This document shows positions 22,009 through 31,136 of a stretch of 40,182 nucleotides of DNA, piece after piece. This DNA is from Candidatus Roizmanbacteria bacterium RIFCSPHIGHO2_12_FULL_38_13. Lineage in GTDB: Bacteria > Patescibacteriota > Microgenomatia > UBA1406 > GWC2-37-13. The DNA lies in NCBI GenBank assembly GCA_001789555.1, contig MFZZ01000001.1, forward strand, positions 1-40,182. Direction: 5' to 3'. The translations under genes were made by a program, and so were the position numbers. Numbering within the stretch: position 1 is the stretch's first letter; each line of letters begins with the position of its first letter. Under the pieces are notes generated by a model, which had not been told where the DNA came from, made no database searches, and saw nothing but the letters and a program-made list of their open reading frames with translations.

Positions 22009-25000
22009 CTAACACTCCGAATGTCCACAGCCGTAACATTTGGCACATCCCTCTTCACGCGCAAGTAGCGCCTGTCCGCAGTCAGGACAAATATCATAGT
22101 GTTTTTCTTGAGTCGTCTGCGCGGCAACAATAGGACTAGTGGTGTCGTTTTCGATGAGGGTTGGCTGTTCTACCTGTCCTACTAATTCAACTTCATGGGC
22201 TTTTCCGTTGCCATTGCCATTTCCATCTGCATTTACGACTTGTTGTTTTTGCAGGTGCTCGAAATGCATTGTCAATACTTTTGCCACTGCGTCAGGCAGA
22301 CTACGAATACGATCCTTACCAAATCCGAGCGCTCGACCGCCGCCGATGCCCTGCAGTTCATCAATGACTTTATTGATACGCTCTTCTGTTGGTAAATGAG
22401 CAGTACTTCTAAAATACATTGAAATCATTCTTCCTAATCCTTCTGCCATTGCAAATACATCAGTTCCTGCCTTACCGACAGTAATAAATACTTCATGTGG
22501 TTCATTGTCGCCATTGGTATTTATAGTGATATAAGCTCGACCTACAGGCGTATTGATACGGTATGTTGATCCGTGTACCACCATCGGCCTAGGTTTGACG
22601 GCAGGTGAAACTGGTCGTGGTAGATTTTTTTCATCTTCCTTCTTGCCCTTCATAGCTTTTCCGCCAGAGGCGGATCGGCCTATGGCCGAAGCGTCGGAGG
22701 GGCGTGTCAGTACTCCCATTCGCGAACCTTCTCGCATATAGGCAATACCTTTAAGCCCATGATCATAAGCGAGAGTATAAAGTTTTTTGACATCTTCAAC
22801 GGTATGGTTGTTTGGAGCATTAACAGTTTTGGAGATTGAAGCATCGACATATTTTTGGATCACGGCCTGCACCATCACATGGTCCTCGGGCGAAAGATCG
22901 TTGGCCGAAACAAACCAATCTGGTCTTTGCAATTTTCCGGATTTAATTTCTTTTTCGTGTTCTTTATACCATTTTTCATATAAATAATGACGCATCGTGT
23001 GTTGCCCCAATCTATCTCGACGGATAAACTCAAACTCATACACGGGTTCTATCCCCGATGTCGTACCTGCCATGAGTGAAGTGGAGCCGGTTGGCGCCTG
23101 CATGAGAAGCACCGAATTGCGAATACCTTTTGATTTCACGATATTTCTAATAGCTGCAGGCATCTTGCGCATAAAACCACTTTTTATAAATTTTTTGCCG
23201 TCAAATTTTGGGAAAGCTCCTTTTTCAGAGGCCAAATTAGCAGAAGCTTTATAAGCCTCATGACAGATCATTTTATACACTTTATCGATAAATTTTAACG
23301 ACTCTTTAGAACCATAGCGAATGTGAAGCTTAATAAGCGCATCACCTAAACCCATGGTGCCAAGACCGACACGCCTCTCTCCTTCAAGTTGAGTTTTTCT
23401 GATGCCCGGGAAAACATACGGATCCATGTCGACAACATTGTCTTGGAAACGAACCGCCATATGGACCACTTGCTTTAAATTACGAAAGTCGAATTTGCCG
23501 GGTTTATTAACATCATTCCCTTTTACAAGCGCGGAAAGATTTATCGATCCTAAATTACAGACTCCCCAAGCCGGAAGTCCTTCTTCACCGCAATTTGAAA
23601 CAATCAATCCATTTGCAGAAAAACGATGAACGTCAGCAACTGTTATATCAAACACTTCTTCAATACCATCTTTCTCCAAAGATTCAAATGTGGCCATAAA
23701 TATTTCTTTATACGGGCCACGTTGGTATAAGGATAAAAAGGATTGAAGTTTATTCTGCTTTACTTCTTGGAGAAATCCGATTAGACCTGAAAACTTGATT
23801 AGACTTTCTTTGGAAATAACAAGCTCGTGATATGACTTACAGTGATACAATTTATTCCCACCGTGACCATCAGGTAAATATCGTTCCCCTTCTAAACGAC
23901 GATTTTTGTAAATTTTGCTAAAAATCCCAAAATTTAATAAAAGTTCTTGTACCTGGCCAAGAAGAGTAGAACTAACTGAAGTGAGTCGTACACTCACACC
24001 TTTTTCAAGCGTACCAATAACGGTGCCGTCACTAGAAAAAAGTCCTTGCAAAAATCCTCGTTGCAATGATTCAGAACCTTCAAATACCGCCGATGGAACG
24101 ATATATTTATTTCCGTGAGTCAATCCTAATTCTGCTGCCATCCTCCACAGTCGTACAGACTCAACAACCGCTTTATCTTCTTGGTCAATATATTGTGGTT
24201 TTACAGGATAACTTCTGGCTATCAACTGCTTTCCCTCAACCATCTGATCGACCATATATGCAAACTGGGGCGCGAGTTCCTTTTTCTCATCACGATAAAA
24301 ATATAATGTTGCAACGTCTTTTTTTAAAGAACCATCACCTACAAGCCAACCCCACACTCGTCCTTCTTCTAAGCTCCCTCTGACGCCAAAATAACCCCCC
24401 GTTGAAACAAGTATCTTGTCTCCTTTTCGAAGTTTTCCCGCCTCCTTTTTCCCTATCGAAGTATATACTTTATGCTCTTCTGTTAATCTTAGCTGATAAC
24501 CCTCCTTTGTAGCAAGCTTATATACCTGTTTTATACCTGTGCGTTTTACAGGCGTAGAGAGATAATTTTTCCCATTTACTACAACCTGAAAGGGTAATCC
24601 TATTTTATATAATTGGCTTATTGTTTTTATCCCATTTGTCGTGGCTACACGAGTATCACCTGTGACACAAGGATTTACACATATGATGCGATTCCAGTAA
24701 TAGTTGTTGTGCATTTTATTATAGCGTTCCATAAAAACAACTCCAGGCTCTGCCGAGCGCCAAGCAGCTTCTCCAATGAGATCCCAAATTTTTCTGGCTT
24801 TAACGACTTTAAAGACCTTAATTTTCTTACCTCTGGCTTTCCATGCTTCTATATCTCCATCCCAAACCTCATCATATTCCGGATCGTTTTTGTCGGGGAA
24901 AATAAGCGGCCAATCAGCGTCTTTCTTAACTGCCTCCATAAAACTGTCTGAAACACAGACCGAAAGATTGGCTCCATTGATTCGTGAAAGATCTTGCTTC

Positions 25001-25545
25001 ACAGTGATAAACTCTTCAATATCCGGATGCCAATCCCACAACATGAGCATGAGTGCGCCTCGTCTTGTGCCTCCTTGCTGAATAATATCTTTAGTTGCAA
25101 GCGAGAAGATTTCGGCCCAGTTACAAGGTCCGGATGAAAATCCGTTCACTTTTTCTACACGAGCACCTTTTGGCCTCAAAGAAGAAATATTTATACCTAC
25201 TCCGCCACCTCGCGCCATAATCTCGATCATCTCACCAAGGGTTTTCAAGATACCTTGACGCGAATCGGCAGGAGAGGGAATGACAAAACAATTGTAAAAA
25301 GTCACCGCATATCCTGTCCCCGCACCAGCGAGAATGCGCCCTCCCGGGACATATTTAAAATCTTCCATGGCTTCGTAAAATGCTTTTTCCCATTTTTTAC
25401 GAACTGATGATTTTTCTTGCTTAGACACCGCACCAGCAATCCGGCGCCACATCTCATTTGGGGTTTTTTCAATTGGATCACCTTTTTTACTTTTAAGAGA
25501 ATATCTATCAAGAAATACTTTTTCTGAGACACCGGATAGTTTCAT
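22009..25545 (-). CDS. nrdJ: Adenosylcobalamin-dependent (class II) ribonucleoside-diphosphate reductase containing an intein
   Basis: GGVGINISSLRPKG, spliced extein junction VNP/CGEEGLPAWGVCNLGSINL, LMQAPTGSTSLMAGTTSGIEPVYEF; TSCPD-like region; C-terminal CPDCG...CAKCYGCGHSEC zinc-ribbon/redox tail. Confidence 0.95.
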   Translation of the reverse strand: MKLSGVSEKVFLDRYSLKSKKGDPIEKTPNEMWRRIAGAVSKQEKSSVRKKWEKAFYEAMEDFKYVPGGRILAGAGTGYAVTFYNCFVIPSPADSRQGILKTLGEMIEIMARGGGVGINISSLRPKGARVEKVNGFSSGPCNWAEIFSLATKDIIQQGGTRRGALMLMLWDWHPDIEEFITVKQDLSRINGANLSVCVSDSFMEAVKKDADWPLIFPDKNDPEYDEVWDGDIEAWKARGKKIKVFKVVKARKIWDLIGEAAWRSAEPGVVFMERYNKMHNNYYWNRIICVNPCVTGDTRVATTNGIKTISQLYKIGLPFQVVVNGKNYLSTPVKRTGIKQVYKLATKEGYQLRLTEEHKVYTSIGKKEAGKLRKGDKILVSTGGYFGVRGSLEEGRVWGWLVGDGSLKKDVATLYFYRDEKKELAPQFAYMVDQMVEGKQLIARSYPVKPQYIDQEDKAVVESVRLWRMAAELGLTHGNKYIVPSAVFEGSESLQRGFLQGLFSSDGTVIGTLEKGVSVRLTSVSSTLLGQVQELLLNFGIFSKIYKNRRLEGERYLPDGHGGNKLYHCKSYHELVISKESLIKFSGLIGFLQEVKQNKLQSFLSLYQRGPYKEIFMATFESLEKDGIEEVFDITVADVHRFSANGLIVSNCGEEGLPAWGVCNLGSINLSALVKGNDVNKPGKFDFRNLKQVVHMAVRFQDNVVDMDPYVFPGIRKTQLEGERRVGLGTMGLGDALIKLHIRYGSKESLKFIDKVYKMICHEAYKASANLASEKGAFPKFDGKKFIKSGFMRKMPAAIRNIVKSKGIRNSVLLMQAPTGSTSLMAGTTSGIEPVYEFEFIRRDRLGQHTMRHYLYEKWYKEHEKEIKSGKLQRPDWFVSANDLSPEDHVMVQAVIQKYVDASISKTVNAPNNHTVEDVKKLYTLAYDHGLKGIAYMREGSRMGVLTRPSDASAIGRSASGGKAMKGKKEDEKNLPRPVSPAVKPRPMVVHGSTYRINTPVGRAYITINTNGDNEPHEVFITVGKAGTDVFAMAEGLGRMISMYFRSTAHLPTEERINKVIDELQGIGGGRALGFGKDRIRSLPDAVAKVLTMHFEHLQKQQVVNADGNGNGNGKAHEVELVGQVEQPTLIENDTTSPIVAAQTTQEKHYDICPDCGQALLAREEGCAKCYGCGHSEC
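23593..24669 (-). mobile_element. Intein (359 aa, protein residues 293-651) with LAGLIDADG homing endonuclease domain
   Basis: N-terminal CVTGDTRVATTNGIKTISQL; LTEEHKVYTSIGKKEAGKLRKGDKILV; LAGLIDADG motifs VWGWLVGDGSL and LQGLFSSDGTV; C-terminal IEEVFDITVADVHRFSANGLIVSN|C. Confidence 0.95.
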
Positions 25546-28029: not shown

Positions 28030-28068
28030 TCAAAATATTGACAAATACGGTTGACTCTTACTCTCTGC

Positions 28069-28074
28069 TATAAT
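28069..28074 (+). promoter_or_regulatory. Extended -10 box (TGC-TATAAT) for the PIN/HARP-like gene
   Basis: tgcTATAAT, 8 nt before ATG at 28083. Confidence 0.65.
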
Positions 28075-28082
28075 AATCCAAT

Positions 28083-28700
28083 ATGGACAAATATGTCATC
28101 GACACAAATCTTTTGTTTAATATGGAAGGCCGGATGGGAATTGGAGACAAAACAGAAACCATCATTAAAAATCTTCATCAGGCTTTCGGACGGGCCAAAG
28201 AAAAAATCTTAATTTATATGCCTCCTAGCATCAAAGAAGAGATAGAAAGTTTTTTTGAAAACCCGAGACAACCTTTTTTACATGATTTTTTTACCGCAGT
28301 GACTATCAAAACCCCCAATTTATCGGAGATTATGGTGTCGTCGTCTGTAATGGCCGAATTTATCGATGAGTGTCGTACTCGAGCCTATCGAGGCATGAAT
28401 GTTGCCGAAGAGAATATCACAAAAGCAGCAACCGATTTTATGGGCCATGAAGAACTGCCAAAAAAAGAGTTTCAAATTGCCGTTGGATCAATAATTAAAT
28501 CCTTCAGAGAACGTTACCGCAATGCGACAAGAACGAACTTTATCGATAGTCAAAGTGATTTTGAAGTCATCATGCTTGCGCGGGAACAAGAAGCCTATCT
28601 TGTTAGTACCGACGAGGGTGTTATTCGTTGGGGACGACGCTTTGGCGTGCAGGAGATGAGTTCTGTCGTTTTTGGAAAAAAGATGCAAGAGTATCTTTGA
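28083..28700 (+). CDS. PIN-domain ribonuclease of the UPF0278/'RNA ligase partner' type; candidate HARP (RNA-free RNase P)
   Basis: MDKYVIDTNLLFN N-terminal PIN Asp; YRGMNVAEENITKAATDF ... IIKSFRERYRNATRTNFIDSQSDFEVIMLAREQEAYLVSTDEGVIRWGRRFGVQEM matches the remembered family pattern (GMRVAEE..., IIRxFREKYRxAxRxxxxDSxxDxxxLLLAxExxAxxVxxDxGIxxWAxxxG). Confidence 0.8.
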   Translation: MDKYVIDTNLLFNMEGRMGIGDKTETIIKNLHQAFGRAKEKILIYMPPSIKEEIESFFENPRQPFLHDFFTAVTIKTPNLSEIMVSSSVMAEFIDECRTRAYRGMNVAEENITKAATDFMGHEELPKKEFQIAVGSIIKSFRERYRNATRTNFIDSQSDFEVIMLAREQEAYLVSTDEGVIRWGRRFGVQEMSSVVFGKKMQEYL

Positions 28701-29298
28701 TGCCAGCGATCTGCCTGTCTTCCTTATCGTTTTTAGAACCTGTTTCACTGCCTGCTGGACTTTCATCATCTGGCATAAGGTATGAAAGCCATTTAATGAT
28801 GTGGTCGGTAAGAGTCAAAGTTGGCTTTTCCTGATAAACGATATGTTCGGCAAGGATTTTCATTACTTGTTTTTTTGTACTGTCTCTTGGAATAACCAAA
28901 TAGGCATGAAAGTAATAAGGTCCATGGGTCACTATGGTAAGAATCTCAAACCCAAAACGAGAAGTAAAATAAAAATGTGAGAGAGCTTCCCAACGAAGAG
29001 TGATGCCGGCAGTCTCCAAGCCAAACTTTGTGATCCTGTTTTCGATCTCTGGTGGCGGAGTAATAGTCAAGACATAAAATAAAAATAATACTGACCAGAT
29101 AGGAATAATAAGTATATGATCACCCAAAAAAAATATTATGACTGAAAGTAGTAGCGCGACAGTAATATAAAAACGCAAAATGTATTTGCTCCTCTTTTTA
29201 TATGCGCGAAGCGGCGCCTTCCACGAATATAAAATCTGTGGATTAAGCGAAGGTGGTAGTGGAGTTGCAGATTGTGATAAAAGATTTTCTTGCGTCAT
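28621..29298 (-). CDS. Two-TM membrane protein, conserved-looking hypothetical
   Basis: 225-aa ORF with central TM hairpin YILRFYITVALLLSVIIFFLGDHILIIPIWSVLFLFYVL; 80-bp convergent overlap with the PIN gene. Confidence 0.65.
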   Translation of the reverse strand: MTQENLLSQSATPLPPSLNPQILYSWKAPLRAYKKRSKYILRFYITVALLLSVIIFFLGDHILIIPIWSVLFLFYVLTITPPPEIENRITKFGLETAGITLRWEALSHFYFTSRFGFEILTIVTHGPYYFHAYLVIPRDSTKKQVMKILAEHIVYQEKPTLTLTDHIIKWLSYLMPDDESPAGSETGSKNDKEDRQIAGIKDTLASFFQKRQNSSPARQSVVPNE

Positions 29299-29396: not shown

Positions 29397-29795
29397 ATGT
29401 TAAAAAACGCGCTGCAGCGACTTATCGGTTCTAAAAAAACAATTAAAACTTATGATCTTCTTAGACTTAAGGCCAAGTCGTACCGTTTACTGAAAAATAA
29501 AGTTGACGACTATCTAAAAGCCTATAAAATTTCTGCGGTCGACTGGATGGTTTTGGGATTACTTCACAAAAGTATTGAAGGGTTAAAATTCGGTGAAATT
29601 GCAACCGAACTTGGTGTTGAGCCTCCATTTGTTACAGAGCTTGTTAACGGGCTTGAAAAAGGAAAGTTTATTGCTGTTAAGGAAAGCCCTCTTGATAAGA
29701 GAAGTAAAATAGTTAAGTTAACGAATAAAGCTACAAAGTTACTATCTGAAGCAGAAAAAAATATGCAATCAAAACTTGCTGATCGACTCGTTTAA
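29397..29795 (+). CDS. MarR-family winged-helix transcriptional regulator
   Basis: DWMVLGLLHKSIEGLKFGEIATELGVEPPFVTELVNGLEKGKFIAVKESPLDKRSKIVKLTNKATKLL. Confidence 0.88.
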   Translation: MLKNALQRLIGSKKTIKTYDLLRLKAKSYRLLKNKVDDYLKAYKISAVDWMVLGLLHKSIEGLKFGEIATELGVEPPFVTELVNGLEKGKFIAVKESPLDKRSKIVKLTNKATKLLSEAEKNMQSKLADRLV

Positions 29796-31136
29796 CCTAT
29801 CGGCAATATCATTTTGTTCTTTTGTAAGTTCTTGATCTTGATCTATCCATTGATCTTCTTCATCATTAAACCACTCATTTGCTTCCATTCTCTTTACAAT
29901 TTGCTCCATACGCGAAATACGCACGTCAATAATCTCATTCACACGATCAATTTCGGTTTTATACTGATTGTAAAACTCCTCTGTTTTTTTAAGATCCCGC
30001 CAACCCGGCTGGATGTTTTTTAATCTCACCAGTCCTTCTTTCCAACTTGCGATTTCACCTGTCCCGTAGTTTGGTGGAACAAAGCCAGCTAGGTGTTGGA
30101 TGACAACCTGTACCGGGCAACCATTTAGAGAACCAACAAAAGTACTGACCCCGATATCATCGTAATCCGGATTTAATAAAAAATCGTGTGCTCCTGGCCT
30201 TTCCAAAAAGGCCTCAAAAAGCTCTTTTGCAGTGTAATAACCTGTCATCGGGAACTCACCAAAAATAATGTTTGAGTAACCTACGTCACCCATTGCCTGT
30301 TCCATTGTATATCTGCTTTTTTTAGCCTCAAAAGAAAAATCGTCATATTTGAGCATCACCTCTGCTCTCAACCTTGCAGATTGTTCAAGCTTGGGATCAT
30401 AGCTTAGCGGGTCTAACTTGTTTTTTCTTCGTTCCTCATTTAGCAATGATAGATACTCGGACGAGTCAAACAACGATTCAAACTCTGTATCAAGATCATG
30501 TGTTGGGTCTCGCCATTTGTTAGAAAATTTTTTTTCCTGTTTTTCAAATGGGATATAATACTCAATATCATTGTAAGAAACCATTCCTATCTGACGAGAA
30601 TCCATACTGATCTTTCTGTTATCGCCGAGCACAAATAACTTGTTCTGCGGCACCTTGAGTTCTTGACAGTCTTTTACTTCGGTGCTGCCAAATGTAGAGC
30701 GCGGTTGTAATATATATGGCTCTTCGATTGACTTACCGTTAACAGAAACAAATCCGTTTCGAATTGAGACTGTGTCACCGGGCAATCCAATCACTCGCTT
30801 AACAAAACCCGACTCATCTTTTTCCTGTTTTTGCAGTTCTTTGGCTGTTTTTTCATTCTCAAAAACAACTATGTCGCCCTTTTCTATTCTTTGCGGCAAG
30901 ACTGTCTGTATTCGCGGATCAGAAACATATCTTTGAAACTCGACAAGTCCTTCCTCGGGAAGCGTAGGCAACATCGAAGCACCGGACACCGGAACTTGCA
31001 CCGGCAATATACCAAACATTTGGAAGATAAACCAACCGCCGATGATAAAGGCGGCAAAGATGACCGTTTTTAGAAGAAAAATTATCAACTTCACCGGCCA
31101 CAATAAAACTTCTATGATGGGATTTCGTTTTGACAT
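29769..31136 (-). CDS. lepB: Signal peptidase I fused to a C-terminal CAP/SCP-like domain
   Basis: SGASMLPTLP (catalytic Ser), VKRVIGLPGDTV (catalytic Lys), LFVLGDNRKISMDSRQIG; then LSLLNEERRKNKLDPLSYDPKLEQSARLRAEVML...YDDIGVSTFVG CAP-like. Confidence 0.88.
   Translation of the reverse strand: MSKRNPIIEVLLWPVKLIIFLLKTVIFAAFIIGGWFIFQMFGILPVQVPVSGASMLPTLPEEGLVEFQRYVSDPRIQTVLPQRIEKGDIVVFENEKTAKELQKQEKDESGFVKRVIGLPGDTVSIRNGFVSVNGKSIEEPYILQPRSTFGSTEVKDCQELKVPQNKLFVLGDNRKISMDSRQIGMVSYNDIEYYIPFEKQEKKFSNKWRDPTHDLDTEFESLFDSSEYLSLLNEERRKNKLDPLSYDPKLEQSARLRAEVMLKYDDFSFEAKKSRYTMEQAMGDVGYSNIIFGEFPMTGYYTAKELFEAFLERPGAHDFLLNPDYDDIGVSTFVGSLNGCPVQVVIQHLAGFVPPNYGTGEIASWKEGLVRLKNIQPGWRDLKKTEEFYNQYKTEIDRVNEIIDVRISRMEQIVKRMEANEWFNDEEDQWIDQDQELTKEQNDIADRLNESISKF

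Follow-up and report, generated by a model that had tools for sequence, protein, structure and literature searches.

A probable protein-only RNase P gene in Candidatus Roizmanbacteria

The 40,182-nucleotide stretch of DNA analysed here (the window) comes from a Candidatus Roizmanbacteria genome of 1.2 Mb in 46 contigs that is approximately 89% complete. At positions 28083–28700 of the forward strand it carries an open reading frame that begins with ATG, contains its stop codon within these coordinates and encodes a 205 aa protein. The original prediction had described this protein as a candidate member of the HARP/UPF0278 family of protein-only RNase P with an N-terminal PIN aspartate in the motif VIDTN, and both claims held. 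The Pfam family PIN_5 (PF08745) matched residues 3–205 (E = 4.4e-46; 157.3 bits against a cut-off of 27) and was the only Pfam family to match at E ≤ 0.001, while TIGR03875, "RNA ligase partner", matched over the full length with 157 bits (cut-off 95.3). The motif VIDTN occupies residues 5–9 and contains the catalytic Asp7. All seven matches in a sequence search of the PDB were RNA-free RNase P proteins (best E = 5.4e-23).

An AlphaFold model built from 68 aligned sequences (pLDDT 94.2, pTM 0.87) showed a PIN core with two long inserted helices. Foldseek comparison of this model placed the Aquifex HARP/pre-tRNA complex (8kd9) at the top of the list (E = 1.9e-14, TM 0.83/0.89), with HARPs filling the first 34 places, and the fold match included the protruding two-helix spike. 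A better match to VapC toxins, which would have refuted the prediction, was not found; a VapC toxin appeared only at E = 0.018 with a TM of 0.44. In the named genome collection, the closest proteins came from Candidatus Roizmanbacteria (CPR, Microgenomates) and were mostly 45–57% identical, and the presence of full-length copies at this level of identity in other Roizmanbacteria genera excludes a chance open reading frame. The window protein fell inside the Candidatus Roizmanbacteria clade of a HARP tree. The tree is unrooted and its archaeal rows comprise a single Heimdall sequence; as it cannot be rooted on that one row, the donor of the gene and the number of gains remain unresolved. In its family, fold and active-site residues, the gene at 28083–28700 thus encodes a full-length HARP, homologous to the Aquifex RNase P.

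Catalytic aspartates, elbow arginines and an extended spike

The four catalytic aspartates of the Aquifex protein Aq880 are all present in the window protein, and all are invariant in 68 of 68 aligned HARPs: Asp7 (28101–28103, forward strand as for all features of this gene) corresponds to Aq880 D7, Asp155 and Asp159 (28545–28559) to D138 and D142, and Asp177 (28611–28613) to D160/D161. The corresponding Aq880 residues were reported to be indispensable, D7 being essential (PMC8266387). Two arginines that contact the tRNA elbow in Aq880 (R125 and R129) are matched by Arg142 and Arg146 (28506–28520), identified from the alignment and the Aq880 mutants, of which R129A was inactive and R125A nearly so (PMC8266387). 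Arg142 was conserved in 68/68 sequences and Arg146 in 67/68, the one exception being a lysine; Arg150 was also invariant in the 68 HARPs.

According to the secondary structure of the AlphaFold model, the spike consists of a first helix at residues 87–119 (28341–28439) and a second at residues 127–150 (28461–28532), with block pLDDT values of 87–96. The segment containing the spike hairpin (residues 109–142) spanned 33–36 aa in the Roizmanbacteria-clade rows of the alignment, including the window protein, against 19–24 aa for the equivalent span in every other HARP row, including those of a second HARP-bearing family of the class (f15). The hairpin of the Roizmanbacteria clade (the second helix and the loop before it) is therefore 10–15 residues longer than in HARPs from outside the order.

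Genomic neighbourhood and promoter

The original prediction also noted that the HARP gene adjoins a divergently transcribed toxin-antitoxin pair. This held, as a Phd/YefM antitoxin (PF02604; 27671–27994) and a ParE toxin (PF05016; 27463–27714) are both encoded on the reverse strand. None of the relatives compared had this pair next to HARP, which marks it as a real but incidental neighbour without functional meaning for HARP. On the other side, a convergent reverse-strand gene (28621–29298) encodes a predicted membrane protein of approximately 200 aa without a Pfam family, and its 3′ part shares 80 nt with HARP. In 45 loci, each with a HARP of the order-type clade, a homolog adjoins HARP in a convergent and mostly overlapping arrangement. 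It was considered as a HARP partner and rejected, because 202 of the 233 class genomes encode it, with or without HARP. Genes for NrdR and ribonucleotide reductase were found near HARP in many relatives, and dnaA-dnaN directly 5′ of HARP in others.

Two further genes of the window were noted in passing. The ribonucleotide reductase (22009–25545, reverse strand; 1178 aa) is interrupted by a LAGLIDADG-containing intein, and no intein was seen in its 801 aa counterpart in a close relative (L052). A gene at 29769–31136 (reverse strand) encodes an unusual combination of an S26 signal peptidase fused to a CAP (SCP-like) domain, with a homolog of nearly equal length in the same place in L052.

A TATAAT hexamer (28069–28074, forward strand), part of an extended −10 sequence (TGCTATAAT), lies 8 nt 5′ of the HARP start codon, and the region 28066–28083 shows no obvious ribosome-binding site. 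The hexamer was not called by a consensus promoter scan; a similar −10-like box lies shortly 5′ of the HARP ATG in many relatives. The proximity of the box to the start codon, here and in these relatives, suggests leaderless HARP mRNAs, an inference from sequence alone.

Probable replacement of rnpB and rnpA by HARP at the genome level

To place the gene in context, one set of 233 genomes of the class was searched for HARP, the RNase P RNA gene rnpB (RF00010) and the RNase P protein gene rnpA (PF00825). HARP scored above the cut-off in 27 genomes, comprising 21 of the window's family, three of two other families of the order and three of f15; every sampled member of the order (24/24) carried it. 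Across the phylum, a search of 380 genomes found HARP above the cut-off only in the window genome and one other genome of its family (G005). As far as sampled, the trait is confined within the CPR to the Roizmanbacteria order and f15.

Neither rnpB nor rnpA was found in any of the 27 HARP genomes, compared with 185 (rnpB) and 186 (rnpA) of the 206 HARP-negative genomes of the class, 201 of which carried one or both. The exclusion is formally strong (Fisher p < 1e-21), but the test ignores kinship, and by kinship the 27 genomes represent about two lineages rather than independent cases, so we give the value little weight. HARP, rnpA and rnpB were all missing from five class genomes (G024, G035, G148, G151 and G182). 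One of these, G035, is an approximately 92% complete member of f15, the family of the three HARP-only genomes, and may reflect an assembly gap or a further variant.

The detection of rnpB in approximately 90% of HARP-negative class mates indicates that the Rfam model is sensitive in this class. With lax filters, the 27 HARP genomes gave only stray rnpB matches, the best at 12.3 bits, and the type-B RNase P RNA model (RF00011) reached at most 17.4 bits; by comparison, an rnpB gene missed under the strict filter in one genome (G049) scored 79 bits under the lax filters. The data cannot exclude outright that an RNase P RNA has diverged too strongly for the Rfam models, but this is unlikely because rnpA is missing too and because two of the HARP-only genomes (G121 and G140) are each a single contig. 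The original prediction left it undecided whether rnpB was replaced or complemented by HARP, or whether HARP had some other RNA-processing role, and proposed a search for rnpB and rnpA. Neither gene was present in the window genome (approximately 89% complete) or in any sampled relative from the order, which favours replacement at the genome level.

Excision of rnpA from the rpmH operon

In class mates that carry rnpA the gene order is rpmH-rnpA-yidD-yidC. In contrast, in 12 Roizmanbacteria loci rpmH is followed after 1–100 nt by yidC and then by a gene for a KH/R3H (Jag-like) protein, both rnpA and yidD being gone, whereas in the HARP genomes of f15 only rnpA is gone, leaving rpmH-yidD-yidC. 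Domain identities in the operon were checked on examples. In G179 (family f3) a GTPase-like open reading frame follows rpmH, and in the window's own, approximately 89% complete genome the rpmH locus was not found. These arrangements show that rnpA has been cleanly excised from the rpmH operon in HARP genomes, and the unlike scars (rpmH-yidC and rpmH-yidD-yidC) suggest that the two lineages lost the gene separately.

tRNA genes and the need for 5′ cleavage

The HARP genomes encode 44–46 tRNA genes each. Many of these genes stand in tandem, only 0–13 nt apart: in G121 and G140, for instance, Arg(ccg) and Ala(cgc) genes abut directly, and the window's genome has a Leu-Thr-Arg cluster. Such close spacing means that leaderless transcription cannot supply all of the tRNA 5′ ends. 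The idea that a lack of encoded CCA ends is a special adaptation of HARP genomes found no support, as encoded CCA is uncommon in HARP and rnpB genomes alike (6/49 and 11/59, respectively, by a rough count). The HARP of Hydrogenobacter cleaves CCA-less precursors about 10 times faster (PMC10652100), and it is conceivable, though only an inference, that uncommon encoded CCA predisposed the class to accept HARP.

Comparison with known HARP systems

The closest known parallel is the HARP of the Aquificaceae (Aquifex aeolicus Aq_880; 7f3e, 8kd9), which shares family, fold, catalytic aspartates and elbow arginines with the window protein at approximately 28–31% identity. The Aquificaceae have likewise lost both rnpA and rnpB, and their rpmH operon is likewise shortened by rnpA; a review gives the Aquifex arrangement as rpmH-yidD-yidC (PMC10941002), whereas the Roizmanbacteria operon has lost yidD as well. 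The spike hairpin of the window protein is also approximately 10–12 residues longer than in the Aquificaceae copies compared, and the organisms differ, the Aquificaceae being hyperthermophiles and the HARP-bearing order described here consisting of CPR bacteria with genomes of approximately 0.7–1.5 Mb, many from groundwater. The HARPs of gammaproteobacteria and archaea (for example Halorhodospira 7og5, Thermococcus 7e8j) share the family, fold and active site, but their hosts have kept RNA-based RNase P and usually encode the RNA ligase Rnl3, in many cases adjacent to HARP; the HARP genomes studied here have neither. The ligase adjoins proteobacterial and Heimdall HARPs, but all 27 HARP genomes of the class lack it (PF18330).

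Genome mining in 2025 reported bacterial HARPs from other orders only, with 89% co-occurrence with the ligase; a lack of pre-tRNA cleavage in vitro is reported there for four recombinant HARPs taken from other bacteria (PMC12153264). HARP and the RNP enzyme occur together in archaea and many bacteria, and HARP proved dispensable in those cases that were tested (PMC12153264, PMC10941002). HARP without RnpA has been recorded in unclassified bacteria by Daniels et al. 2019 (PMC6380272), as here; unlike the present analysis, that study did not name the groups in its text, did not search for RNase P RNA and made no clade-level analysis. In the literature searched, which included few subscription papers and no preprints, we found no report of HARP or RNase P in Patescibacteria, Roizmanbacteria or Microgenomates, and no order-wide replacement by HARP outside the thermophilic Aquificaceae.

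HARP as the probable sole RNase P

Taken together, these data make it very likely that HARP is the sole RNase P, responsible for tRNA 5′-end maturation, of this Roizmanbacteria lineage. Its activity, oligomerisation and essentiality are inferred, and activity cannot be assumed from family membership alone because four other bacterial HARPs failed in vitro. By homology, HARP dimers would form through their two-helix spikes and then assemble further, the spike arginines of one dimer would hold the pre-tRNA elbow, and the 5′ leader would be cut at the metal site that four aspartates form in a neighbouring dimer. HARP may have been gained in the ancestor of the order, with rnpB and rnpA lost afterwards, although this order of events is inferred.

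Among the alternatives, the most serious is that HARP is an accessory nuclease, acting for example with an RNA ligase to repair RNA, and that a divergent RNA-based RNase P missed by the models processes the tRNAs. The coexistence of HARP with the RNP enzyme elsewhere, its dispensability where tested (PMC12153264, PMC10941002) and the lack of pre-tRNA cleavage by some HARPs in vitro (PMC12153264) speak for this reading. We nevertheless consider it unlikely, given that rnpA is missing too, having been cut out of its operon, that Rfam detects rnpB in approximately 90% of HARP-negative class mates, and that the partner RNA ligase is present in 0/27 HARP genomes.

Two other explanations have less in their favour. 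The PIN fold and the neighbouring antitoxin gene would fit a VapC-type PIN toxin, possibly linked to the toxin-antitoxin genes next to it. However, the antitoxin already has ParE as its toxin and relatives do not keep these two genes next to HARP, the structural match to VapC is weak (E = 0.018, TM 0.44) relative to that to HARP (E = 1.9e-14), PIN_5 is the sole Pfam match, PADLOC gave no match, and the presence of HARP in every sampled genome of the order is not toxin-like, all of which make this reading highly improbable. It is equally hard to sustain that the tRNAs are leaderless as in Nanoarchaeum, with no need for RNase P and some other function for HARP. This would account for the missing RNP enzyme but has no direct support, and tandem tRNA genes 0–13 nt apart, among them Arg(ccg)-Ala(cgc) and the Leu-Thr-Arg clusters, cannot all be leaderless.

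With HARP as the sole RNase P remaining the preferred reading, a bolder one is also likely: that the whole Roizmanbacteria order and, by a separate loss, apparently a second family have replaced RNA-based RNase P with a ligase-free HARP, which in the order bears an extended spike. The absence of the ligase makes the RNase P role of HARP separable here from its proposed role with RNA ligase. RNase P is a near-universal relic ribozyme. If the bolder reading is true, the loss of this ribozyme would not depend on heat, nor would it be an accident that happened only once. A large HARP-only clade with small genomes and close rnpB-bearing class mates lends itself naturally to comparing why and how the ribozyme can be lost.
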